DNA of 64,000 bases from Variovorax paradoxus EPS (lineage in GTDB: Bacteria; Pseudomonadota; Gammaproteobacteria; Burkholderiales; Burkholderiaceae_C): contig NC_014931.1 of NCBI RefSeq assembly GCF_000184745.1, positions 2,542,001 through 2,606,000 of the forward strand, written 5' to 3'. The notes under the pieces were generated by a model that made no database searches, was not told the DNA's origin, and was given only the letters and a program-made list of their open reading frames with translations. Below, piece after piece: positions 24,719-36,498 of the stretch (the stretch's first letter is position 1; every line of letters begins with the position of its first letter). Made by a program: the position numbers and the translations under genes.

Positions 24719-24747
24719 TTGACATGTTATGTCGACGCACCTATAGT
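24719..24747 (+). promoter_or_regulatory. Near-consensus sigma-70 promoter of the yjfI-pspA-flotillin operon
   Basis: TTGACA at 24719-24724 and TATAGT at 24742-24747 are separated by exactly 17 bases. An A/T-rich tract (GAAAAGAAAATTTTT, 24706-24720) precedes the -35 and could act as an UP element. It is the only promoter of this quality I saw in the window, and it sits 52 bases before the first gene of the operon. No sigma-54 or heat-shock-like element is apparent. Confidence 0.75.
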
Positions 24748-24799
24748 GAATCCATCGAAGCCCCGCTCGCTTCCAACGGTTTCAACCACAAGGAGAGGT

Positions 24800-25216
24800 A
24801 TGCAATCACTGCTCGATCAACTCAGGGGCCTCGATGCGCTGGCCGGCGCCGCAATGGGAGGGCTGCCGGTGCAGCTGCAACCCATTCCGGGCAGCACGCC
24901 CGTGGTCCAGGTGAGCATCGAGGGGCGCGATGAGCTGCCTATCTTTATTACCAGTTCCGACATGCAGATCATCTGCATCTGCTATCTCTGGACCGAAGAT
25001 GAAGTGAAGCCCGAGCGCCGCACCGAGCTGCTCGAATCGCTGCTCGACCTCAACCCCTCCGTGCCCCTGTCGTCCTTCGGTCGCGTCGATGGCCGCTACG
25101 TGCTCACCGGTGCGCTGGGGCGCAATGCGCGCGTGGAAGACGTTGCACGCGAAGTGGCAGTGCTCAGCGACAACGCGATCGATGCCCTGGACGCCCTGTC
25201 CGAATTCCTGAATTAA
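24800..25216 (+). CDS. YjfI-like protein (DUF2170)
   Basis: A 138-residue cytoplasmic protein similar to E. coli YjfI. The segments ELPIFITSSDMQIICICYLW and LSSFGRVDGRYVLTGALG are characteristic as I know the family, whose function is not settled. AGGAGAGG directly precedes the ATG. It is the first gene of a nine-gene run and is followed 13 bases later by the PspA homologue, the same pairing as yjfI-yjfJ in E. coli, which supports a joint role in envelope stress. Confidence 0.82.
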   Translation: MQSLLDQLRGLDALAGAAMGGLPVQLQPIPGSTPVVQVSIEGRDELPIFITSSDMQIICICYLWTEDEVKPERRTELLESLLDLNPSVPLSSFGRVDGRYVLTGALGRNARVEDVAREVAVLSDNAIDALDALSEFLN

Positions 25217-25229
25217 GCGAAAGATCCAC

Positions 25230-25943
25230 ATGACCGTCATCAAGAAGCTTGTCACCCTGCTGCGCGGCAGCGCGCGCGAGATCGGCGAGAGCGTGGTCGA
25301 CAGCAACGCCACGCGCATCTACGAGCAGGAAATCATCGATGCCAAGCACAGCATCGAGAAGGCCAAGGGCGACCTCACCGGCGTGATGGCCAAGGAGATG
25401 CAGTCGGCCCGCGAGATCGAGCGCCTGAAGAAGGAGATCACGCGCTACGAAGGCCTCGCGATCGAAGCGCTCAACAAGACGCAGGAAGGCCTCGCGCTCG
25501 ACGTGGCGGCCAAGGTCGGCACCATCGAGCAGGAGCTCGAGGAGCAGGCCAAGGCCCATGCGTCCTACGCGCTGCAGGTCTCCAAGCTCAAGGAACTGAT
25601 CAAGTCGGCCGAGGCGCGCATCCGCGAGCACGAGCGCGAGATCGGCATCGCCAAGACCACCGAGAGCGTCTACCGCGCCACGCAGTCGATCTCCGAGAAC
25701 ATCGGCAGCGGCGGTTCACGGCTGGCGAATGCGCGCGAATCGCTCGAACGCATCCGCGCCCGGCACGAAGACCTGGCCGATCGCATGACGGCCAGCCAGG
25801 CGCTCGAGAACGAACTGGGCCACCAGGCGCTCGAGAAGAAGCTGGCCGCCGCGGGCATCGGCAGCGACGCCGACCGCACCGGCAAGGTGATGGAACGCAT
25901 CCGCGCCCGCCAGGCCAACCCGGGCGGGACCGCTTCCGAATGA
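25230..25943 (+). CDS. PspA/IM30-family membrane-stress protein (YjfJ-like)
   Basis: A 237-residue almost fully helical, coiled-coil protein. It starts MTVIKKLVTLLRGSAREIGE, which should form the amphipathic membrane-binding helix, followed by long heptad-rich helices (EREIGIAKTTESVYRATQSI and similar). PspA/IM30 proteins are ESCRT-III-like and polymerise on damaged membranes to limit proton leakage. Its last codons overlap the start of the next gene (ATGA). No PspF-type enhancer-binding protein is adjacent, so regulation differs from the classic psp operon. Confidence 0.88.
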   Translation: MTVIKKLVTLLRGSAREIGESVVDSNATRIYEQEIIDAKHSIEKAKGDLTGVMAKEMQSAREIERLKKEITRYEGLAIEALNKTQEGLALDVAAKVGTIEQELEEQAKAHASYALQVSKLKELIKSAEARIREHEREIGIAKTTESVYRATQSISENIGSGGSRLANARESLERIRARHEDLADRMTASQALENELGHQALEKKLAAAGIGSDADRTGKVMERIRARQANPGGTASE

Positions 25944-26299
25944 ACGTGCGGGTCAAGCCGGTTCGCTGGCAAGGCTCGGACGAGGCGATACGCGCCGTCC
26001 AGGTGGCGTTCGACGTGGAGGAGGCCGTGCTGGAGGCGGTGCGCAAGGCGGCTTTCGAGCAGCATGTGTCCACCTCCGACCAGATCCGCCAGGTGCTGGG
26101 CCTGGCGACCACGTCCAGGCCCAAGCGCCCGCGCCTGACGGTGTCGCTCAGTGGGGCAGACTATGAATTCCTGGCGAAGCGCTACGGGCTCGCCGCCGAC
26201 GACCGCCTGGCCATCAAGGAGAGGGCCACGCGCGACCTGATCGCGTTTGCAAGCAGTGGGAAGAAGAGCACCGGCGCAGGGAGGCCGGGCCGCAAGTAG
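25940..26299 (+). CDS. Small basic protein with two ribbon-helix-helix-like segments
   Basis: A 119-residue basic protein without a family name I can give. Two parts have the strand-helix-helix pattern of ribbon-helix-helix DNA-binding domains: AVQVAFDVEEAVLEAVRKAA with VSTSDQIRQVLGL (residues about 19-55), and RLTVSLSGADYEFLAKRYGL with a following helix (about 65-104). The RHH reading is my inference. It could be an operon autoregulator or an adaptor. It is translationally coupled to the PspA gene, and the equivalent position in related clusters also holds small proteins. Confidence 0.7.
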   Translation: MNVRVKPVRWQGSDEAIRAVQVAFDVEEAVLEAVRKAAFEQHVSTSDQIRQVLGLATTSRPKRPRLTVSLSGADYEFLAKRYGLAADDRLAIKERATRDLIAFASSGKKSTGAGRPGRK

Positions 26300-26333
26300 A
26301 ACAACGAACAACAACCCGCAAGCGGGAGGATCA

Positions 26334-26978
26334 ATGGGCAATTTCATGGATGCGGTGGTGGGCTACCCCACCGCGATCTACACGGTGCTGCTGGGCGTCG
26401 TGGTGATCTATTGGGTGCTCGCGGTGCTCGGCATGGTCGACATCGAAGGCAGCGGCATCGATGTCGACGTGCAGACGCATGCCGATGGCGACACGAGCGA
26501 TGTCGGCCAGCTCGCGAGCTACGTCGTCGCCTTCGGCCTGAACGGCGTGCCGTTCTCGGTGGCCGTGAGCCTGCTGGTGCTCGTTGCATGGACCGTCTCG
26601 TGCCTGGGCGGCGAGTGGCTGCTGCCGCTGGTGCCGACGATGCTGCTCAAGCTCGTGGCCGGCACGGCGCTGCTGGTGGTCAGTGCGGCCATCGCCATTC
26701 CCGTCACCGCCGTCGCGATCCGGCCGCTGCGCGGGCTCTTCGTGAGCCACACGGCCGTGAGCAACGCGGCGCTGGTCGGCCAGGCCTGCCGCGTCGTCAC
26801 CGGCGTGGTGAACGAGAAGGACGGCCGCGCCGAGATTTCCCGTCGTGGCGCCAGCCTGAACATCCGCGTCTGGGCGCCGACGCCCAACACCCTCAAGCGC
26901 GGCTCGCACGCGCTGATCCTCGAATACGACGAGGTGGCCGGCCGCTACCTCATCGCGGCGCACGAAGACATCGTCTGA
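26334..26978 (+). CDS. YqiJ-like membrane protein with OB-fold domain
   Basis: A 214-residue protein with an N-terminal membrane helix (TAIYTVLLGVVVIYWVLAVLG), two or three further hydrophobic segments around residues 62-125, and a C-terminal cytoplasmic OB-like beta domain (ALVGQACRVVTGVVNEKDGR). This is the NfeD-related YqiJ type that is almost always encoded next to a YqiK flotillin, as it is here 52 bases later. It probably anchors or modulates the flotillin assembly. GGGAGGA precedes the ATG. Confidence 0.83.
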   Translation: MGNFMDAVVGYPTAIYTVLLGVVVIYWVLAVLGMVDIEGSGIDVDVQTHADGDTSDVGQLASYVVAFGLNGVPFSVAVSLLVLVAWTVSCLGGEWLLPLVPTMLLKLVAGTALLVVSAAIAIPVTAVAIRPLRGLFVSHTAVSNAALVGQACRVVTGVVNEKDGRAEISRRGASLNIRVWAPTPNTLKRGSHALILEYDEVAGRYLIAAHEDIV

Positions 26979-27030
26979 TCACGCGCATCCCTTACTGTTC
27001 GTCCGCTCTCAAAGCAATTCTGGAGAAAAA

Positions 27031-29217
27031 ATGGAGCCCATCATCTTTGCCGTGGTCATTCTGGCCGTGGTCATCCTCGGCCTGTTCGCGATGTTCGCCA
27101 AGTTCTATCGAAAGATCGAACAGGGCCACGCACTCATCGTGAACACGCTGCGCGCCGAGCCCGAGGTGACCTTCACCGGGCGGATGGTCTACCCGATCAT
27201 CCACAAGGCCGAGCTGATGGACATCTCGGTCAAGACCATCGAGATCGACCGCTCCGGCAACGAGGGCCTCATCTGCCGCGACAACATCCGCGCGGACATC
27301 AAGGTGAAGTTCTTCGTGCGCGTCAACAAGACCGCCGACGACGTGCTGAAGGTGGCGCAGGGCATCGGCTGCGCGCGGGCCTCCAACCACGAGACGCTCG
27401 AAGAATTGTTCTCTGCCAAGTTCTCCGAAGCGCTCAAGACGGTCGGCAAGTCGATGGATTTCGTCGACCTCTACCAGGCGCGCGACGGCTTCCGCGACCA
27501 GATCATCAGCCAGATCGGCAACGACCTTTCGGGCTACGTGCTCGAAGACGCGGCGATCGACTACCTCGAGCAGACGCCGCTGTCGGAGCTGGACGCCAAC
27601 AACATCCTCGATGCGCAGGGCATCAAGAAGATCACCGAACTCACGGCGGTCGAGCATGTGCGCACCAACGAGCTGCGCCGCAACGAGGAAATGCAGATCA
27701 AGAAGAAGAACGTCGAGACGCAGGAAGCGCTGCTCGAACTCGAGCGCCAGCAGGCCGACGCCACCTCGCGCCAGCACCGCGAGATCGCCAGCGTGCGCGC
27801 CCGCGAGGAGGCTGAAACTTCCAAGATCCAGTCCGAAGAGCGCACCAAGTCCGAAACCGCGCGCCTGCTCTCGGAGCAGACCGTGGCCGTGCAGCAGGAG
27901 AACGTGCAGCGCGAAAAGGAAGTGGCCGAGAACAACCGCAAGCGCGCGGTCGCCATCGAGGAAGAAAAGGTCACGCGCGCCCGCGACCTGGAAATCGTCG
28001 ACCGCGAGAAGGAAGTGACGCTGCAGCGCATCGAGAAGGACAAGGCCGTCGAAGTGCAGAAGAAGGCGATTGCCGACGTGATCCGCGAGCGCATCGTGGT
28101 CGAGCGCACGGTGGCCGAGCAGGAAGAAGCGATCAAGGAACTGCGCGTGGTCGCGGAGGCCGAGCGCACCAAGAAGTCGGTCGTGATCATGGCCGAGGGC
28201 CAGGCCGACGAGAAGATGGTGATCGACGTGAAGGCCGCCGAAACCCAGGAAAAACGCGCACGCCACAAGGCGGCCGAAGAACTGACGCTGGCCGATGCCA
28301 AGCTCAAGGTGGCCGAGCGCGATGCCGAATCGAAGAAGCGCGAAGCCGAGGGCATGGAAGCGCTCTCCGCCGCGCCGGGCCTGGCGGCTGCCAAGGTAGA
28401 GATCGCCACCGCGCAGGCACGCCTGGCCACGTTCGAGGCCGAAGCTTCGGGCAAGGAAAAGCTCGGCCTCGCCGACGTGCATGTGCGCCAGGCCGATGCC
28501 GACGCCATCCTCAAGGCTGGCCAGGCCGACGCGCAGGTGATCGAGGCGCGCTCGCAGGCCGAAGCCGCCGGCATGCGTGCCAAGTTCGACGCAGAAGCCT
28601 CGGGCAAGGAAAAGCTCGGCCTTGCCGATGTGAGCGTGCGCACGGCCGATGCCGAAGCCACGCTCAAGTCCGGCCAGGCCGATGCGCAGGTGATCGAAGC
28701 CCGCTTCAACGCCGAGGCCAAGGGCCTGCACGAGAAGTTCGAGGCCATGAAGTCGATGAGCCCGGAAACCCGCGACCACGAAGAGTTCCGCATGCGCCTG
28801 GAAAAGTCGCACATCGAGACCATGAAGGGCATCGACGCGCAAACCTCCATCGCCAAGGAGCAGGCCGATGTGCTGGGCACCGCGCTCGCCAACGCCAAGA
28901 TCGACATCGTGGGCGGCTCGGGCGACTACTTCGACAGCTTCGTGCGTTCGCTCTCGGTGGGCAAGGGCATCGACGGCGTCATCTCCAAGAGCCAGGCGGT
29001 GCAGGTGGCCTTCAAGGACCAGCTCTCGGGCGAACGCGACGTGGTGAAAGACCTGCGCGACATCGTCGGCGCCTTGGGCAATTCGTCGGGCGAGATCCAG
29101 AACCTCAGCGTTGCCTCGCTGATGAGCCGCATTGCCGCCGACGGCACCGATACCCAGAAGTCGGCGCTGCAGAACCTGATCTCCACCTTCCGTCCATTGA
29201 ACGGGAACGTGCAATGA
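27031..29217 (+). CDS. Flotillin-family protein, YqiK-like
   Basis: A 728-residue SPFH/flotillin protein. One N-terminal helix (IIFAVVILAVVILGLFAMFA) is followed by the SPFH/PHB domain (residues about 30-200) and a very long coiled coil rich in E, K, R and A (about 210-580). The C-terminal flotillin tail is beyond that. Residues about 471-572 contain a 51-residue unit repeated twice, beginning EASGKEKLGLADV. At 728 residues it is clearly longer than E. coli YqiK (about 550). Flotillins organise membrane microdomains. Four-base overlap with the next gene supports one transcript. Confidence 0.92.
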   Translation: MEPIIFAVVILAVVILGLFAMFAKFYRKIEQGHALIVNTLRAEPEVTFTGRMVYPIIHKAELMDISVKTIEIDRSGNEGLICRDNIRADIKVKFFVRVNKTADDVLKVAQGIGCARASNHETLEELFSAKFSEALKTVGKSMDFVDLYQARDGFRDQIISQIGNDLSGYVLEDAAIDYLEQTPLSELDANNILDAQGIKKITELTAVEHVRTNELRRNEEMQIKKKNVETQEALLELERQQADATSRQHREIASVRAREEAETSKIQSEERTKSETARLLSEQTVAVQQENVQREKEVAENNRKRAVAIEEEKVTRARDLEIVDREKEVTLQRIEKDKAVEVQKKAIADVIRERIVVERTVAEQEEAIKELRVVAEAERTKKSVVIMAEGQADEKMVIDVKAAETQEKRARHKAAEELTLADAKLKVAERDAESKKREAEGMEALSAAPGLAAAKVEIATAQARLATFEAEASGKEKLGLADVHVRQADADAILKAGQADAQVIEARSQAEAAGMRAKFDAEASGKEKLGLADVSVRTADAEATLKSGQADAQVIEARFNAEAKGLHEKFEAMKSMSPETRDHEEFRMRLEKSHIETMKGIDAQTSIAKEQADVLGTALANAKIDIVGGSGDYFDSFVRSLSVGKGIDGVISKSQAVQVAFKDQLSGERDVVKDLRDIVGALGNSSGEIQNLSVASLMSRIAADGTDTQKSALQNLISTFRPLNGNVQ
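28441..28746 (+). repeat. Tandem 153-bp in-frame duplication inside the flotillin gene
   Basis: Two consecutive units start at 28441 and 28594, 153 bases apart, each encoding a 51-residue segment opening with EASGKEKLGLADV and containing GQADAQVIEAR. The encoded copies remain very similar while the wobble positions differ, so this is an old or conversion-maintained duplication. It lengthens the coiled-coil stalk by about 7.5 nm if fully helical. Confidence 0.75.
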
Positions 29218-29759
29218 ATCCGAACCTGAAGTGCAGCTGCGCTGGCCGCGCGGCGATGCAGCCCGTGGCGCTGGCCGAAGCGCTGCTGGGCGTGCAATGC
29301 GGCGATTGCCACGGCATGGTGATGGCCATGGACGACTGGCGCGCCTGGAAGTCCGCCGACCCTGAGCGCGTGCCGCATGCGGTCGACGACGAAGTCATCG
29401 AGGTGTTCGACATCGCCGCGGTGCGGCACTGCCCCGAATGCGACCGGTTGATGCAGCGCCTGCGTGTGAGCGCCGGCCCCGATTTCCGCATCGACCGCTG
29501 CGTGGCCTGCCAGAACCTGTGGTTCGATGCGGGCGAGTGGCGCGCCATCGTGAGCCGCGGCCTCGCGGGCCGGCTCGACGAATTGCTGTCCGATGGCTAC
29601 CAGCGTCGGCTGCAGACCGAAGAGGTACGTGAAGCCCGCCTCGTCGCGCTGCGCCGCCGCTACGGCGACGACTGCATCGACGAGCTGGACCGCATCCGCG
29701 CCTGGCTCGACACCCAGCCTCACCGCGACGAACTGCTCGCACTGCTGCGCGCGGACTGA
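29214..29759 (+). CDS. Zinc-ribbon (zf-TFIIB-like) protein
   Basis: A 181-residue cytoplasmic protein with two Cys-rich pairs. The N-terminal one is CSCAGRAA with CGDC (residues about 8-34). The second, HCPECDRLM with RCVACQNLWFDAGEW (residues about 73-105), is a textbook zf-TFIIB/zinc-ribbon with the WFDAGE tail. The C-terminal third is helical and charged. Its start overlaps the flotillin stop. It may be an adaptor between the flotillin platform and the ATPase downstream; this is inference. Confidence 0.8.
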   Translation: MNPNLKCSCAGRAAMQPVALAEALLGVQCGDCHGMVMAMDDWRAWKSADPERVPHAVDDEVIEVFDIAAVRHCPECDRLMQRLRVSAGPDFRIDRCVACQNLWFDAGEWRAIVSRGLAGRLDELLSDGYQRRLQTEEVREARLVALRRRYGDDCIDELDRIRAWLDTQPHRDELLALLRAD

Positions 29760-29771
29760 CCGCGCCGATCC

Positions 29772-32700
29772 ATGCAACCCACCGACGAAACGGGAGCGCC
29801 GCCCGGCGCCCAGGCGCCGACCGACCAGACCGAAGCCCTGGTCTCCGGCAGCGGCAGCTACGACCTGCTGAAGAAGCGGCTGGAAACCCAGGGCGAAGGC
29901 CTGCTCAAGAAGACGCAGGCGCTCAACGAGCAGCGCCTGGCCGAATTTGGCCGCTCCGACCAGACGCTGATCCTGCGCACCCGCGCGCGCACCGAGAACA
30001 ACGCCGTGGCGCGCGACATCGTGCGCATCGGCGACCTGCTGCTGTTCGGCTACAACGTCTTCATCGGCCTTCGCAAGGAAACGGCCGTGGGCGACGTGTT
30101 CGGCCTTTACCGGCTCGCAGCGCCCGGCGAAGCCGCCACCGAGAACGACGAGCTGCAGCCGGTGCCGCTGGCTGGCACCTTCCTCGAAGACACGCGCTTC
30201 GCCTCCGACTTCCGCGAGCTCTACGCCTACTACAAGCAAGCCACGCTGCTGCAACTGCGCGTGACGCAGGACAAGCTGCTCGCCTCGTTCCAGATCGGCC
30301 AGCAACTGCACGACGTGCGCGTGTTCCGCTGGGCCATCGAGCGCGACGGCAGCATCCACTACATCGACAACCGAGGCGAGCGCGACATCGCGCTGCCCGC
30401 GAGCCACGATTTCGAATGGACCGTCGCCACGCGCGAAGACCACGTCGGCGGCAAGCACCCGCATGTGAACGTGCTGGACACCGTGTTCGTCGAAACGCTG
30501 GGCGGCGACCTCACGATCAAGATCGAGAACAACACCGAAACGGGCCTCGGTATCTACAGCGAGCCGGTGGAGGACAAGAGCCAGTCGCTCACCGACGCCG
30601 AAATCGCCTGGGCCAAGCTCGGCATGCTGATCTTGCTGCGCGTGAAGCCCTACCGCGAGCAGGTCACGCGCTACCTGGTGTTCAACATTCGGAAGCAGCA
30701 GGTCGAGCGCATCGACGCCATCGGCGGCTCCTGCGTGCAGCTGCCCGAAGACCACGGCATCATTTTTCCGGGCGGCTACTACCTGCAGTCGGGCGAGTAC
30801 AAGCGCTTCGATCTGCCGGCCGACGTGGTCGAGCACCTTCGCTTCAAGCGCATGCTGCGCTCGCCCAACGGCGAGGACGTGGCCTATGTCTTCTACGACC
30901 CGAAGCCCGGGCGCTATGCGCTCTTCAACTACAACCTGATCGAAAAGAAGCTCGCCACGCCGATCATCGCCAACGGCTACGCGCGCTTTGCGGACGGCCG
31001 CATCCTGGTGTTCAACGGCGACGACGGCGAACCGACGCGCGTCCACCCGATGCAGCTGTGGCAGACGCCGTTCGCCAGCGAAGAACATGTGAGCGCGCAG
31101 CCGCCCGCCACCGGCTTCTTTGGCAAGATCGGCAACGCCGAATTGGTGCGCGGCGTGAGCGACCTCATGGGCATCGCGCGCGCGGTGCGCGAGCAGGCAC
31201 CCACGCGCGCTGCCTACGAAGACCTGATCCGCCAGTGCACCCGGGTGAGCGACGCCTACTTCTGGCTCGACGCGCCCGAAGCCACCGGCCTCATGGCCGA
31301 GCTGCGCAGCATTGCCGACGTGGCGCGCAGCACGCTGGCCGAGTTCGAGAAGGTCGACACCATCCGGCGCGAAACCGCGCGCGCATTGGCGCGGGCCGAA
31401 GACGCGCAGCATGCGCTGCTGGTCGACATCGCCAGCACCATCTGGCGCGCGCCCGACGATTTCGTGAAGGCGCTCGGTCGCCTGCGCGAACGGCGCGGCG
31501 CGCTGCAGATGCTCAAGGAGTTGCGCTACGCCGACCTGCCGCGCATCGCCGCGATGGATGCTGCGCTCGAGGTCGAGCAGCAGCGCATCGGCGAACGCGC
31601 GATGCAGTTCCTCGCGGCCGACACGGCCTTCAACGGCCAGCGCCAGGCACTCGACAAGCTCGCGCTCGACCTGCCCAACCTGGCGACATCGCCTGCGCTC
31701 GGGCAGATGCTCGCTACGCTCGACGAGCAGGCGGCGGGCCTCGATCTGCTGACCGAGCAGTTGGGCAGCCTGCCGGGCGGTGACGCGGTGATCCGCACGT
31801 CCATCCTCGACCGCATCTCGCTGATCTACGCCGACATCAACCGCATGCGCGCCGATGCGCGTGTGCGGCGCAAGTCGCTGGGCGCGACCGAGGCGCGCGC
31901 GGAGTTCGGCGCGCAGTTCAAGCTCTTCAGCCAGGCGGTCGAGAACGCGCTGGAGTTCGCCGACACACCCGAAAAGTGCGACGACGCGCTCACGCGCCTG
32001 CTGGCCCAGCTCGAAGAGATCGAGGGCCGCTTCGCCGAGCAGGAAGATTTCCTGGCCGACATCGCCGAGAAGCGCGAGACCGTGTACGAGGCGCTCTCCG
32101 CGCGCCGGCAGAGCCTGGTGGAAGCTCGGCAGCGCCGCGCGCAAGGCGTGGTCGATGCGGCGGGCCGCATCCTCGACGGCATTCCGCGCCGCATCGCGCA
32201 GTTGGCCGACCTGACGCAGGTGCACAGCTACTTCGCGGCCGATCCGATGATCGGCAAGCTGCGCACGCTGATCGCCGACCTGCGCACGCTGGGCGCCGCG
32301 GTGCCGGCCGACGAGCTCGACACACGCTTGAAGACCGCGCGCGACCAGGCGCTGCGTTCCATTCGCGACAAGCGCGAGCTGGTGAGCGAGGGCGGCGACA
32401 CGCTGCGCCTGGGCCGCCACGCCTTCACTGTGCACCGCCAGCCGGTGGACCTGACGCTGGTGGCCCGCGACGAAGGCATGGCCTACCAGGTGACGGGCAC
32501 CGACTACCAGAGCCCCGTGGACGAGCCGCGGCTGCTGCCGCTGCAGCGCTACTGGAACCAAGCGCTGGTATCGGAGACGCCCGAGCTGTCGCGTGCCGAA
32601 TACCTCGCCGGTCGGTTGCTGGAGGCATTGCTCGACGGCAAGGCCGAGCGCAACTGGGCTGACGTGCTCACGCTGCTGGCCGAAGACCCGCTGCATCCGC

Positions 32701-35027
32701 AGCTGCTCGACATGGTCCGCCGCTTCGCTGCCGCGCGGTATCAGGAGGGCTACCAGAAGGGCATCCACGATGACGACGCACTGCGCCTTTTGGGCGCGCT
32801 CGTCGCGATGCAAGACCAGGCCGGCCTGCTCGCCTGGGGCCCGACCGAGCGCGCGCTGGCCTTGCTCTATTGGCAGCACGGACACCTGATCGCCCATCGC
32901 GAATCGATGCTGCGCCGCGCGCGCGCCGCGATGCAGATGCAGACCCTGTTCGGCCGGCGCGATGCGCTGGAGCAGCTCGAAGCGGACACGGCGCGTGCGC
33001 TGAAGCACTTCGCGCACGACGTGGTGCCCGACATGCTGCCGCTGGCCGAGACCGCGAGCGAAGAAGAGCGCGAGGCGCACCAAGGCCGCGTGTCCACGCT
33101 GTGCGACCAGGCCGCCGCGTACCTCGTGCGCGAGTTGGCCGGCGAGCGCGGCGGCGAAGCCTGGGCCGTCTCGGGTGCGGGCGAAGACTTGGCGGCCGCG
33201 CTGCTGCGCGAGCTGGAACGCGGCGGCCGGCGCGATGCCTGGCAGCACGACCTCGACGCCGCACCGCCCGCGGAGCGCTGGCGCCTCGCGCGTGACTGGG
33301 TGCGTGCCTACGCCGTGCACCAGGCGCCGCAGTCGATCGACTGGGTCGACGACGCGGCCAGCGTGCTGGCCATTCCGTTGTCGCGCACCCGCGTCAACGC
33401 GGCGCTCGACCGCACGGTCGAAGGCCTGCGCGGCGAGCATCCGCGCGTGGCCGATGGGCGACTGACGCTGAACCTCAACGACTTCTGGCGCCGCTTCCTG
33501 TTCCACACCATGCACGCGGTGCCGGGCTACGAGGCGCTGCAGAGCCTCCGCCACGAACTGCTCGAGCGCGAGAAGGCGCGGCTCAAGCTCGGCCAGTTCC
33601 AGGCCAAGCCGCTCTCGACGTTCGTGCGCAACCAACTGATCGACGAGCTCTACCTGCCCATCATTGGCGACAACCTTGCCAAGCAGATCGGTTCGGCGGG
33701 CGAGGGCAGCCGCACCGACCGCATGGGCCTCCTGCTGCTGATCTCGCCGCCGGGCTACGGCAAGACGACGCTGATGGAGTACGTGGCGGACCGCCTCGGC
33801 CTCATCTTCGTGCGCATCAACTGCCCGGCGCTCGGCCACGGCGTGACAGCGATCGACCCGGCCAACGCGCCCAACAGCGCGGCAAGGCAGGAGCTGGAAA
33901 AGCTCAACCTCGGCCTCGCGATGGGCAGCAACGTGATGCTGTACCTGGACGACATCCAGCACACGAGCCCCGAGTTCCTGCAGAAGTTCATTGCGCTGGC
34001 CGACGGCACGCGCCGCATCGAGGGCGTGTGGAACGGCGAGCCGCGCAGCTATGACATGCGCGGCAAACGCTTCGCGATCGTGATGGCCGGCAACCCGTAC
34101 ACCGAGTCGGGCGACGTGTTCAAGATCCCGGACATGCTGGCCAATCGCGCCGACATCTACAACCTGGGCGACGTGCTCTCGGGCCGCGAGGCGGCGTTCG
34201 CGCTCTCGTACATCGAGAACAGTCTGACCTCCAACCCCACGCTGATGCCGCTGGCCTCGCGTGACCCGAAGGACGTGCAGTTGCTGGTGAAGATGGCGCA
34301 GGGCCACGACGTGCCGAGCAGCGCGCTTTCGCACGCGTACAGCGCGGTCGAGCTGGAAGAAATCAAGGCGCTGCTGCAACGGCTGTTCCGGGCGCGCGAC
34401 CTGCTGCTGAAGGTCAACCTCGCGTACATCGAATCGGCCGCGCAGCAGGAGAGCTACCGCGTCGCGCCGCCCTTCAAGCTGCAGGGCAGCTACCGCAACA
34501 TGACCAAGCTCGCGGGCAAGATCACGCCGCTGATGCGCGACGACGAGCTCGATGCGCTGCTTCGTGACCACTATCGCGGCGAAGCGCAGACGCTGACCAC
34601 CGGCGCGGAAGAGAACCTGCTGCGCCTCGCGCAACTGCTCGGCAGCCCGACGCCGGAAGAAAGCGCTCGCTGGAAAGCCATCTGCGAGGAGTTCGTGCGC
34701 CAGCGCAAGCTCGGCGGCGCCGACGTGGACGGCAGCCAGCGTATCGCGAGCAGCATGCTCGACGTGGCGCGTGCGGTCGAAGCGCTCAAGCCAGAACCCA
34801 AGCCTGTCGCAGAAGGCCCGAGCGAAGGCCAGCGCCTGGCCGACGCCATGCTCCAGATCGCAGTGACCTACCGCGAGCTGATCCTGCCGTTGGTGACCGC
34901 CACGGAGCGCCGGCTCGAGCTCGACCGGTCGATCAAGCAGGACATGGAACGCCTCGCGGCCGAGGTGCAGGCGAGCCGCGCGGCACCCAAGCGCACGCCC
35001 CCGCCCAAACCAGACAAGGATCACTGA
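29772..35027 (+). CDS. Giant AAA+ 'DNA repair ATPase' (DUF3686 type)
   Basis: A 1751-residue cytoplasmic protein, the largest gene here. The N-terminal half matches the DUF3686 architecture of proteins annotated as DNA repair ATPase: a beta-rich region (about 60-450, e.g. FFGKIGNAELVRGVSDLMG at its end) followed by long helical coils (about 470-1000). The C-terminal AAA+ module has Walker A PPGYGKT (about 1326-1332), Walker B VMLYLDDIQ (near 1392), sensor-1 VMAGNPYT and an Arg-finger-like NRADI. The DNA-repair name is historical and I see no nuclease or helicase motif. Gene order links it to the flotillin and PspA genes. Its stop overlaps the PLD start by one base. Confidence 0.88.
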   Translation: MQPTDETGAPPGAQAPTDQTEALVSGSGSYDLLKKRLETQGEGLLKKTQALNEQRLAEFGRSDQTLILRTRARTENNAVARDIVRIGDLLLFGYNVFIGLRKETAVGDVFGLYRLAAPGEAATENDELQPVPLAGTFLEDTRFASDFRELYAYYKQATLLQLRVTQDKLLASFQIGQQLHDVRVFRWAIERDGSIHYIDNRGERDIALPASHDFEWTVATREDHVGGKHPHVNVLDTVFVETLGGDLTIKIENNTETGLGIYSEPVEDKSQSLTDAEIAWAKLGMLILLRVKPYREQVTRYLVFNIRKQQVERIDAIGGSCVQLPEDHGIIFPGGYYLQSGEYKRFDLPADVVEHLRFKRMLRSPNGEDVAYVFYDPKPGRYALFNYNLIEKKLATPIIANGYARFADGRILVFNGDDGEPTRVHPMQLWQTPFASEEHVSAQPPATGFFGKIGNAELVRGVSDLMGIARAVREQAPTRAAYEDLIRQCTRVSDAYFWLDAPEATGLMAELRSIADVARSTLAEFEKVDTIRRETARALARAEDAQHALLVDIASTIWRAPDDFVKALGRLRERRGALQMLKELRYADLPRIAAMDAALEVEQQRIGERAMQFLAADTAFNGQRQALDKLALDLPNLATSPALGQMLATLDEQAAGLDLLTEQLGSLPGGDAVIRTSILDRISLIYADINRMRADARVRRKSLGATEARAEFGAQFKLFSQAVENALEFADTPEKCDDALTRLLAQLEEIEGRFAEQEDFLADIAEKRETVYEALSARRQSLVEARQRRAQGVVDAAGRILDGIPRRIAQLADLTQVHSYFAADPMIGKLRTLIADLRTLGAAVPADELDTRLKTARDQALRSIRDKRELVSEGGDTLRLGRHAFTVHRQPVDLTLVARDEGMAYQVTGTDYQSPVDEPRLLPLQRYWNQALVSETPELSRAEYLAGRLLEALLDGKAERNWADVLTLLAEDPLHPQLLDMVRRFAAARYQEGYQKGIHDDDALRLLGALVAMQDQAGLLAWGPTERALALLYWQHGHLIAHRESMLRRARAAMQMQTLFGRRDALEQLEADTARALKHFAHDVVPDMLPLAETASEEEREAHQGRVSTLCDQAAAYLVRELAGERGGEAWAVSGAGEDLAAALLRELERGGRRDAWQHDLDAAPPAERWRLARDWVRAYAVHQAPQSIDWVDDAASVLAIPLSRTRVNAALDRTVEGLRGEHPRVADGRLTLNLNDFWRRFLFHTMHAVPGYEALQSLRHELLEREKARLKLGQFQAKPLSTFVRNQLIDELYLPIIGDNLAKQIGSAGEGSRTDRMGLLLLISPPGYGKTTLMEYVADRLGLIFVRINCPALGHGVTAIDPANAPNSAARQELEKLNLGLAMGSNVMLYLDDIQHTSPEFLQKFIALADGTRRIEGVWNGEPRSYDMRGKRFAIVMAGNPYTESGDVFKIPDMLANRADIYNLGDVLSGREAAFALSYIENSLTSNPTLMPLASRDPKDVQLLVKMAQGHDVPSSALSHAYSAVELEEIKALLQRLFRARDLLLKVNLAYIESAAQQESYRVAPPFKLQGSYRNMTKLAGKITPLMRDDELDALLRDHYRGEAQTLTTGAEENLLRLAQLLGSPTPEESARWKAICEEFVRQRKLGGADVDGSQRIASSMLDVARAVEALKPEPKPVAEGPSEGQRLADAMLQIAVTYRELILPLVTATERRLELDRSIKQDMERLAAEVQASRAAPKRTPPPKPDKDH

Positions 35028-35725
35028 TGTCCGCACTGCCCGAACTGCTCGCCCAGCTCGACGCCACCATGGCCGACGCGCGCCTGAGCGACGACGAGCG
35101 CCGCGTGCTGGTCCATACGTTGCGCGAAGCCTCGCCGCCCGAGGACGGCCTGCGTCAACTGCGCAACCGTGCCTTCGACCTGGTGCGCGCGCGCACCGCC
35201 GACCCCGAGCAGCTGTCGCTGCTCAAGTGGCTCGAAGGTGTGGTCCGCTCGATCGACACGGGCCGCTCGCCCGATGCGATCGCGGTGCACTCGCAGGCCT
35301 TCTTCAGCCCTGGCACGGCTTGCCTGCAGGCAATCAATCAGCAATTGAAGGCGGCGAAGCGCTCGATCGACCTGTGCGTCTTCACGCTGTCGGACGACCG
35401 CATCACCGCCGAGGTGCTGGCCGCGCAGCGGCGCGGCGTGGCGGTGCGGTTCATCACCGACAACGACAAGGAGTTCGACCGCGGCAGCGACGTCGGGCAA
35501 CTGCGCGCGGCCGGCATCCCGGTCGCGGTGGACCGCACCGAGGCGCACATGCACCACAAGTTCGCCATCTTCGACGGCGCGCGGCTCATCAACGGCAGCT
35601 ACAACTGGACGCGCAGCGCCTGCGAATACAACGAGGAGAACGTGATCCTCAGCAACGACCCTTCGCTCGTTCGCCGCTTCGCGGACGAATTCGACACCTT
35701 GTGGAAAGAACTGCAGGCCGACTGA
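35027..35725 (+). CDS. Phospholipase D-like protein with a single HKD motif
   Basis: A 232-residue protein with one PLD catalytic motif, HHKFAIFD (His176, Lys178, Asp183), followed by GSYNWT. Single-HKD members dimerise to build an active site and act as phospholipases, nucleases (Nuc/Zucchini type) or cardiolipin hydrolases. The N-terminal 90 residues are helical and unrelated to known PLDs. No signal peptide or membrane helix is present, so it is probably cytoplasmic or peripheral. It overlaps the ATPase stop and the next start by one base each, which indicates tight co-expression. Confidence 0.85.
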   Translation: MSALPELLAQLDATMADARLSDDERRVLVHTLREASPPEDGLRQLRNRAFDLVRARTADPEQLSLLKWLEGVVRSIDTGRSPDAIAVHSQAFFSPGTACLQAINQQLKAAKRSIDLCVFTLSDDRITAEVLAAQRRGVAVRFITDNDKEFDRGSDVGQLRAAGIPVAVDRTEAHMHHKFAIFDGARLINGSYNWTRSACEYNEENVILSNDPSLVRRFADEFDTLWKELQAD

Positions 35726-36498
35726 TGGCGAGACGAATCGACTACGACTGGGAGCTGCCTCCCGAGATGCAGCAGCGCCTGGGCGGCACCACCTACGGGG
35801 CGCAGCGCGTCATTCACGAGCAGGGCCACCTGATGGTGATCCTGCACGAGCCGCCCACCGGCTCCGGCGCCGAGCGCAAGCCCGCGGTGTTCCTGCGCAA
35901 GCCCGATGGGGCGTGGCTGCACAAGGGCAACAACCCCGGAGAACGGGCGCTCGCCAAGCTGCTCGAGAGCTATCGCGCGGCGTTCAGCACCTTCGAGATC
36001 CGGCACCAGTCCGCGGAAACGGCGGAGGAGCTGTTTCAGATCCTCGGCCCGCTGATCCCGCTCACGCGCGCCGCGATGAACATGCAGGCGACGCTGCAGG
36101 CGGCGCGCGAAGCGGCCAAGGACGACCTGATGCTCATCGATCTGCGCGACCTGGCGGTCGAGATCACGCGCGGCATGGAGTTGCTGCTGGCGGACACCCG
36201 TATGTCGCTGGACTACCGCCTCGCGCACGCGGCCGAAGAACAGGCGCGTGCGGGCATCGAGGTGAGCCGCGCGCAGCACAAGCTCAACACCATCGCCGCG
36301 CTGACTTTTCCGCTGATGGCCATCGGCGCCGCCTTCGGCATGAACCTGCACAGCGGCGCGGAGAACCTGCCGGCCTGGGTGTACTGGGTGATCTTCGCGG
36401 CCGGCATCTGCCTGGGCGTGATGCTGCGCGGCTGGGTCAAGGCGCCAGCGGCGCCGCCGGTCGTTGCAAAGCCGGCATCCACGCTGAAGAAGAAATAG
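35725..36498 (+). CDS. CorA-like two-helix membrane protein with GMN motif
   Basis: A 257-residue protein. It has a soluble helical N-terminal part and a long helix rich in EEQARAGIEVSRAQHKLNT. Two C-terminal transmembrane segments (TFPLMAIGAAFGMNLH and WVYWVIFAAGICLGVMLRGW) follow. The first ends in the GMN triad (Gly205-Asn207), the selectivity signature of CorA Mg2+ channels, located at the same point relative to the helix. It is shorter than CorA (about 316) and lacks the usual N-terminal alpha/beta domain. It ends the nine-gene operon. A pore-forming effector is a reasonable hypothesis. Confidence 0.8.
   Translation: MARRIDYDWELPPEMQQRLGGTTYGAQRVIHEQGHLMVILHEPPTGSGAERKPAVFLRKPDGAWLHKGNNPGERALAKLLESYRAAFSTFEIRHQSAETAEELFQILGPLIPLTRAAMNMQATLQAAREAAKDDLMLIDLRDLAVEITRGMELLLADTRMSLDYRLAHAAEEQARAGIEVSRAQHKLNTIAALTFPLMAIGAAFGMNLHSGAENLPAWVYWVIFAAGICLGVMLRGWVKAPAAPPVVAKPASTLKKK

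Follow-up and report, generated by a model that had tools for sequence, protein, structure and literature searches.

The 64,000-nucleotide stretch of Variovorax paradoxus EPS DNA analysed here (contig NC_014931.1, positions 2,542,001 to 2,606,000 of the forward strand; "the window", in whose numbering positions are given below) carries a nine-gene operon of the CesT/Tir-PspA, flotillin and AAA+ ATPase type. The operon probably serves the response to membrane stress, that is, envelope repair, and is probably switched by the product of its own third gene. To judge from sequence comparison, this ribbon-helix-helix (RHH)-like protein is very probably the dedicated repressor of the operon. Indeed, among 66 YjfI-led operons examined, the third gene (gene 3) and a palindrome, GACAT-N3-ATGTC, occur together without exception. 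The core of the operon is ordinary and published, its composition is a variant, and its control is new as far as literature searches show. Nine intact, co-directional and closely packed open reading frames (ORFs) occupy positions 24800-36498 of the plus strand, with junctions, in gene order, of +13, -4, +34, +52, -4, +12, -1 and -1 nucleotides (nt). The promoter, the predicted operator and the nine products (lengths in amino acids, aa) are as follows.

24719..24747, + strand: sigma-70-like promoter; -35 element TTGACA at 24719-24724, 17-nt spacer, -10 element TATAGT at 24742-24747; 11 of 12 positions match the consensus.
24721..24733, no strand: predicted operator GACAT-GTT-ATGTC overlapping the -35 element, from pattern comparison across loci.
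24800..25216, + strand: YjfI/BacA-like protein of CesT/Tir type (DUF2170), 138 aa; PF09938; PDB 8q8o (a DUF2170 protein), E 3.1e-6.
25230..25943, + strand: PspA/IM30 (YjfJ-type) membrane protein of the ESCRT-III superfamily, 237 aa; PF04012, E 1e-31.
25940..26299, + strand: gene 3, RHH-like, 119 aa; predicted dedicated DNA-binding autorepressor, from weak RHH Pfam matches and operator co-occurrence.
26334..26978, + strand: YqiJ/NfeD2-type membrane partner of flotillin, 214 aa; from similarity to annotated relatives and synteny.
27031..29217, + strand: YqiK-type flotillin (SPFH2), 728 aa; 50% identity to an annotated Streptomyces flotillin.
29214..29759, + strand: zinc-ribbon protein, 181 aa; PF13453 (Zn_ribbon_TFIIB), E 8.8e-6.
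29772..35027, + strand: giant DUF3686 AAA+ ATPase, 1751 aa; DUF3686, E 6.6e-195; Walker A GYGKTT at residues 1328-1333.
35027..35725, + strand: phospholipase D (PLD)-like protein with a single HKD motif, 232 aa; PLDc_2, E 2.3e-30.
35725..36498, + strand: short CorA-like protein consisting of transmembrane segment (TM) 1, GMN and TM2, 257 aa; lineage-restricted; Pfam CorA, E 2e-4, below the Pfam cut-off.

A first-pass annotation of the window had described nine co-directional genes behind one strong promoter with overlapping or very short junctions, and ORF coordinates, gaps and promoter scan agree with it; the palindrome over the -35 element was not mentioned there. TTGACA-N17-TATAGT is the sole sigma-70-like site found between 23500 and 37500, a region in which chance alone would give 1.1. 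All 14 other Variovorax operons compared keep the -35 element, and the -10 element is identical in 13, locus L033 having TACAGT. The palindrome over the -35 element of the window and of 14 named Variovorax operons reads GACATgttATGTC, with gat in the middle at L041. A sigma-54 promoter, as in Pseudomonas aeruginosa, was also considered. A scan for -24/-12 elements with at most three mismatches found none upstream of YjfI, the plus strand being empty between 24374 and 25387, and this candidate was rejected; across the whole window 280 sigma-54-like sites were counted versus 295 by chance. DUF3686 and DUF2170 are each represented in the genome by a single gene, that of the operon, and the operator in the window is the only exact GACATN3ATGTC in the 6.55 Mb of the genome.

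The association of gene 3 with the palindrome was established on 95 ATPase loci, namely the best 80 of 206 relatives plus 15 from family and phylum samples. Relatives of each protein were found by iterated profiles, and a locus entered the count for a given gene only if its contig extended far enough. Eight loci were left out of the operator count for their short contigs, five for having no upstream genes, and the loci lacking YjfI were also set aside; ORF starts were fixed by profile alignment. GACAT-N3-ATGTC lies just upstream in 43 of 43 YjfI-led loci with gene 3 (RHH+) and in none of the 23 without it (RHH-). A wider first count gave 42 of 44 RHH+ and one of 38 RHH- loci, the two RHH+ misses being mis-set ORF starts. 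Elsewhere in the 2.0 Mb of locus DNA two sites were counted, and both turned out to lie upstream of YjfI. Fisher's test gives 3e-18, but the loci are related, so this value is not readable as a probability. The RHH+ loci include Variovorax, Hydrogenophaga, Rhizobacter, Massilia, Duganella, Dechloromonas, Denitromonas, Uliginosibacterium, Chitinimonas and Thiodiazotropha.

A de novo search for 5-bp palindromes with gaps of 0-8 ranks the same motif top, with 29 of 29 non-Variovorax RHH+ upstream regions versus none of 22 RHH- regions (one further RHH- locus having too little upstream DNA); the next-best gapped palindrome reaches 10 of the 29. The three middle bases vary across loci. TTGACA is embedded in the site in all 43 RHH+ loci, and a -10 element with at least four of six matches follows 16-18 nt beyond the -35 element in 32 of them. 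Where the site is doubled, the spacing is 15 bp (nine cases), 29 bp (five cases), 31 bp or 32 bp. Gene 3 is present in three of the 200 genomes of the family sample, all DUF3686 carriers. Among the matches listed for the 25 operon-bearing genomes of the genus, at least 18, our own included, have the site roughly 5 kb upstream of their DUF3686 match, one contig being too short. Together, these comparisons are strong evidence that gene 3 recognises the palindrome. Because the site overlaps the -35 element, repression is the likely action. Upstream of YjfI in two RHH-lacking loci, L017 and L026, other imperfect repeats, CACATTACATGTA and GACATCACATGTA, lie close to the start and may be where a different regulator binds.

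One genome of another family of the same class, G206, separates the site from the gene order. Its YqiJ-YqiK-ATPase locus (L028) is the one RHH- locus with a site, and gene 3 is carried on a different contig, in a YjfI-PspA-DUF4178-RHH operon with two sites. Adjoining the latter is a lipoprotein-like/DUF350/spermine-synthase operon with a site of its own. The 4.1 Mb of G206 contain ten GACATN3ATGTC sites; the reversed pattern, used as control, occurs four times. The core ATT (GACATATTATGTC) is common to seven of the ten, and all seven are upstream of PspA, SPFH or aminopropyltransferase-type operons, six operons in all; the other three, with other cores, all lie inside ORFs. The seven are distributed as follows.

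Lipoprotein/DUF350/spermine-synthase operon: one site.
YjfI-PspA-RHH operon: two sites.
Small ORF followed by a second PspA: one site.
Band_7 gene: one site, also divergent from a dehydratase-like gene.
NfeD-Band_7-Band_7 operon: one site, 350 bp away.
YqiJ-YqiK-ATPase: one site, with a divergent zinc-ribbon gene.

In G206, by this reckoning from motif and gene positions, PspA, SPFH and aminopropyltransferase operons are brought together by the DNA site independently of gene order, and gene 3 seems to tie the ESCRT-III-like PspA and the SPFH scaffolds into one regulon. It is rather likely, if slightly less so than the main reading of a membrane-stress operon switched by gene 3, that this gene is the prototype of a family of repressors dedicated to membrane stress, whose single regulon would take in PspA, SPFH operons of the flotillin/prohibitin/stomatin kinds, aminopropyltransferase genes and the giant ATPase. 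At L165:3001, where the SPFH gene and the dehydratase-like gene diverge, the site lies within a longer palindrome with 13-bp arms and a 3-nt centre. In another genome, G392, a second site, again GACATATTATGTC (L167:3001, G392:C90:9529), precedes a sigma-70-family gene resembling RpoH (L167:2116-2937) by 64 bp. The regulator might also reach a heat-shock sigma factor in G392, the RpoH label being a reading of a sigma-70-family match in a single case. The operator motif strings gave no related report in the open PMC literature, and the name DUF3686 was not found there.

The operon has a firm core and changing accessories. Counted over informative loci, YqiK is present in 87 of 89 and YqiJ in 85 of 87; YjfI (66 of 84) and PspA (65 of 84) follow. 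PLD (48/85), RHH (44/86), the zinc ribbon (39/91) and the CorA-like protein (17/83) are accessories. Gene order is conserved across loci. All nine genes occur in 15 of the 80 fully covered loci, 12 of these 15 being from Variovorax, which is over-represented. As read from these gene contents, the machine is flotillin, an NfeD-like protein and the ATPase, usually with YjfI-PspA, plus the accessories. The first-pass annotation had seen the full set as one machine. A unit of scaffold, PspA and large ATPase in a stress context is retained, but the complete set is not. Independent occurrence of the genes, which it had named as the outcome that would speak against it, is not found for the core and is found in part for the CorA-like, zinc-ribbon and PLD proteins. 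Nor are its two dedicated effectors supported, given these frequencies of PLD and the CorA-like protein; in 13 genomes tested, the latter was encountered apart from the ATPase in two, while the remaining 11 yielded no copy. Most Pseudomonas loci, and a few others, have a rhomboid protease gene after that of the ATPase; one member matches Pfam at E 1.7e-19, and 18 of 18 members have GxSG and a late His. A protein of 79 residues, weakly similar to TerB/EF-hand, occurs in 18 of 89 loci. The rhomboid gene (18 loci), the TerB/EF-hand-like gene (18 loci, some of them betaproteobacterial) or both are found in L082, L085-L098, L100-L102 and L025. They lie between YqiK and the ATPase and after the ATPase, and are absent from the published description of the operon group as far as that account is available.

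DUF3686 is sporadic, being found in nine of 200 genomes of the family, eight of 398 of the phylum and 25 of 101 of the genus, our own counted. The ATPases of loci named Variovorax are 85-98% identical. Of the 13 loci named Variovorax whose right flank reaches at least 9 kb, 12 have the operon before the same LuxR-type and scoAB genes, among metabolic genes. The exception, L044, is an 85%-identical metagenome-assembled genome named Variovorax, whose 9.4 kb right flank lacks those neighbours. In 18 stretches from operon-free Variovorax genomes opgD and LuxR/scoAB are kept in 16 and a VOC gene in 11, and none contains genes of the operon. A CoA-transferase-like gene occupies ten of 11 such empty-site gaps examined, and most contain genes for a LysR-type regulator and an aldehyde dehydrogenase-like protein, as named from their sequences. 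In Variovorax, then, the operon is accessory and its site is fixed.

This distribution bears on the best-surviving alternative, an anti-phage system in which PspA and flotillin sense the membrane, the large ATPase is the core, and the PLD and CorA-like effectors kill the infected cell. It is consistent with the patchy occurrence, and relatives are found on 12 records of a plasmid collection, some of them chromosome-sized. Moreover, PA3728-PA3732 were reported to rise in all phage-infected P. aeruginosa samples (PMC12041424). When the nine proteins were compared with PADLOC there was no strong match; the best was DISARM DrmC (E 3e-9), a weak resemblance through the PLD fold. All the others are weaker and look like generic PLD, coiled-coil or P-loop similarity; among them, the RHH-like protein matches PycC at E 0.013. 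There was no match in 50,697 phage records. The defence-island setting suggested at the outset was rejected for Variovorax, the clade whose flanks were scanned, in view of the shared metabolic site and the absence of a strong PADLOC match. Nor were the supposed effectors constant, PLD not being detected in 37 of 85 loci and the CorA-like protein in 66 of 83, while the same operator precedes ordinary SPFH and PspA operons in G206. An anti-phage role is accordingly improbable.

The proposed envelope-repair function draws on the identities of the single proteins. YjfI matches DUF2170 (Pfam E 4.7e-29). YqiJ is 29% identical to an annotated DUF1449 protein and 33% to the homologue at L168, and YqiK matches Pfam Flot at E 0.005, below the cut-off. 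Their identity rests on annotated relatives because there is no Pfam match above the cut-off. In the ATPase, modelled over residues 866-1665, the fold of the AAA+ module is closest to the MoxR ATPases CbbQ and NorQ. A VWA-domain partner gene nearby is a common feature of MoxR-type AAA+ ATPases; the Pfam search found no VWA-domain match among the nine proteins. The ATPase is therefore likened to NorQ/NorD in working mode but not classed there. A Vps4-like role, considered because PspA is an ESCRT-III relative, was not adopted since the AAA+ fold ranks nearest to MoxR members; the ATPase may nevertheless take part in PspA disassembly. The nearest solved relative of the PLD-like protein is the mitochondrial cardiolipin hydrolase PLD6/Zucchini (E 1.3e-29), and a single HxK(x)4D(x)6GSxN motif per chain is present in 49 of 49 relatives scoring at least 50 bits, one weaker hit being left out.

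In our model, the gene 3 product would bind the palindrome as an RHH dimer or pseudo-dimer and block RNA polymerase, and membrane damage would lift repression through some signal. PspA would then polymerise on the inner leaflet, and YqiJ/YqiK would surround the lesion with an SPFH cage or microdomain. There the MoxR-like ATPase, docked by a presumed beta-propeller and coiled coil, would remodel or disassemble protein complexes, and PLD would trim anionic phospholipid. The CorA-like protein would be a lineage-specific membrane accessory, in the place of which most Pseudomonas loci have the rhomboid protease, and YjfI would provide negative feedback, as BacA does in P. aeruginosa.

The operon could instead be taken as a system of divalent-metal or iron homeostasis, in which a CorA-like transporter, the zinc ribbon and flotillin would control ion leakage. 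The CorA-type GMN signature is present in 18 of 18 members, and knock-out of the YqiK-family SO1377 of Shewanella alters iron metabolism and peroxide sensitivity (PMC1468410). Yet the CorA-like family is small (72 proteins) and not part of the core, and only its C-terminal TM1-GMN-TM2 end matches solved CorA (PDB; E 4e-4 over 62 positions). We regard this explanation as unlikely.

Several observations weigh against a membrane-stress operon repressed by gene 3. The RHH assignment is weak, the match in the window being to FitA-like_RHH at E 0.089. In 41 relatives FitA-like_RHH is matched in seven and RHH_1 in two, all below the cut-off, the best at E 0.016-0.019. There is no PDB sequence match, the single-chain model consists of helices only, and a structural search with it gave no match at E <0.1. 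The "double RHH" label of the first-pass annotation is thus plausible but weak. The protein has 1,569 homologues at E 1e-3 or better. GACATN3ATGTC is common by chance, at least one being present in 72 of 101 genomes of the genus, so the single site in our genome is weak when taken alone. The loci share ancestry, and the 43 versus 23 do not amount to 66 independent events. Pseudomonas relatives have neither RHH nor site, so the switch is not universal. G337 and G392 have RHH in a YjfI-PspA operon with sites and their YqiJ-YqiK-ATPase operons have none, and the DUF3686 ATPase frame of G206 (L028/L168, contig C42) contains one in-frame TGA, its state being uncertain. From the literature, sigma-54 control was proposed for the bac operon (PMC10948618), and the P. 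aeruginosa mutant in the flotillin of this cluster formed only about 20% less biofilm (PMC13086221).

The weak profile matches would also suit a palindrome that is the site of another regulator, the RHH-like gene merely travelling with the promoter. Against this stand the 43 of 43 versus 0 of 23 and the trans arrangement in G206, in which the gene and some of the sites are on different contigs; the explanation is quite improbable. That the operon is a DNA-repair system with PLD as its nuclease, after the public name of DUF3686, "DNA repair ATPase", the Nuc/NucT-type relatives of PLD and the presence of RuvB among the structural matches of the ATPase, is very improbable indeed.

The envelope-repair reading has precedents. 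Ravi et al. (2024; PMC11237479) described an operon of YjfI-PspA, flotillin, AAA+ ATPase and YqiJ, with PLD in some Proteobacteria, and proposed a membrane-linked assembly. In their group 1 of CesT/Tir-PspA systems, the AAA+ ATPase has a beta-propeller and a coiled coil N-terminal to its AAA+ module, and the band-7 flotillin is accompanied by YqiJ/YuaF. The operon studied here has the same genes; a YjfI/CesT-type gene lies beside PspA, 13 nt apart, and flotillin, YqiJ/YuaF and the large AAA+ ATPase are in one operon. Their main text contains neither "CorA", "rhomboid" nor "operator", and brings up RHH for no systems other than group 2 (spermine synthase) and one actinobacterial operon.

The bac cluster of P. 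aeruginosa was found by reverse transcription PCR to be one six-gene operon (Wallart et al., 2024; PMC10948618). It shares, as bacA-F, DUF2170, PspA and then SPFH with a short NfeD (PMC13086221), and its fifth gene, PA14_16190, has been named an ATPase "involved in DNA repair" (PMC8855297). In a bacA mutant the partner genes rose 6.1- to 13.5-fold (PMC10948618). The rise of PA3728-PA3732 on phage infection (PMC12041424) also suits a membrane-stress role. The likeness is drawn from descriptions; the Pseudomonas loci in our set lack RHH and palindrome, and most have the rhomboid and TerB-like genes. The flotillin of the cluster is patchy among Pseudomonas (PMC13086221). The pspF-pspABC system of E. 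coli likewise offers a PspA-based envelope stress response, but it is controlled by PspF (PMC11237479) and sigma-54 (PMC10948618), whereas here a sigma-70-like promoter carries the palindrome and the Pfam search found no PspB or PspC match among the nine proteins. On the plasmid pQBR103 (L155, NC_009444 83446-106356), a hybrid operon has YjfI, PspA, SPFH and the DNA repair ATPase in one run and adds rhomboid, DUF2491, DUF350, DUF1190 and glutathionylspermidine synthase.

The flotillin of the cluster has shown only slight phenotypes (PMC13086221, PMC2636767), probably because the inducing condition is not known. A specific operator and its regulator offer a handle on the system, both for switching it on and for finding the triggering stress. 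Through one DNA site, the predicted regulon of G206 connects PspA with three SPFH operons and aminopropyltransferase-type genes. If gene 3 is indeed such a dedicated repressor, a further kind of Psp control would stand beside PspF, LiaRS and ClgR, and a common programme of bacterial ESCRT-III-like and SPFH proteins would have genetic evidence behind it.

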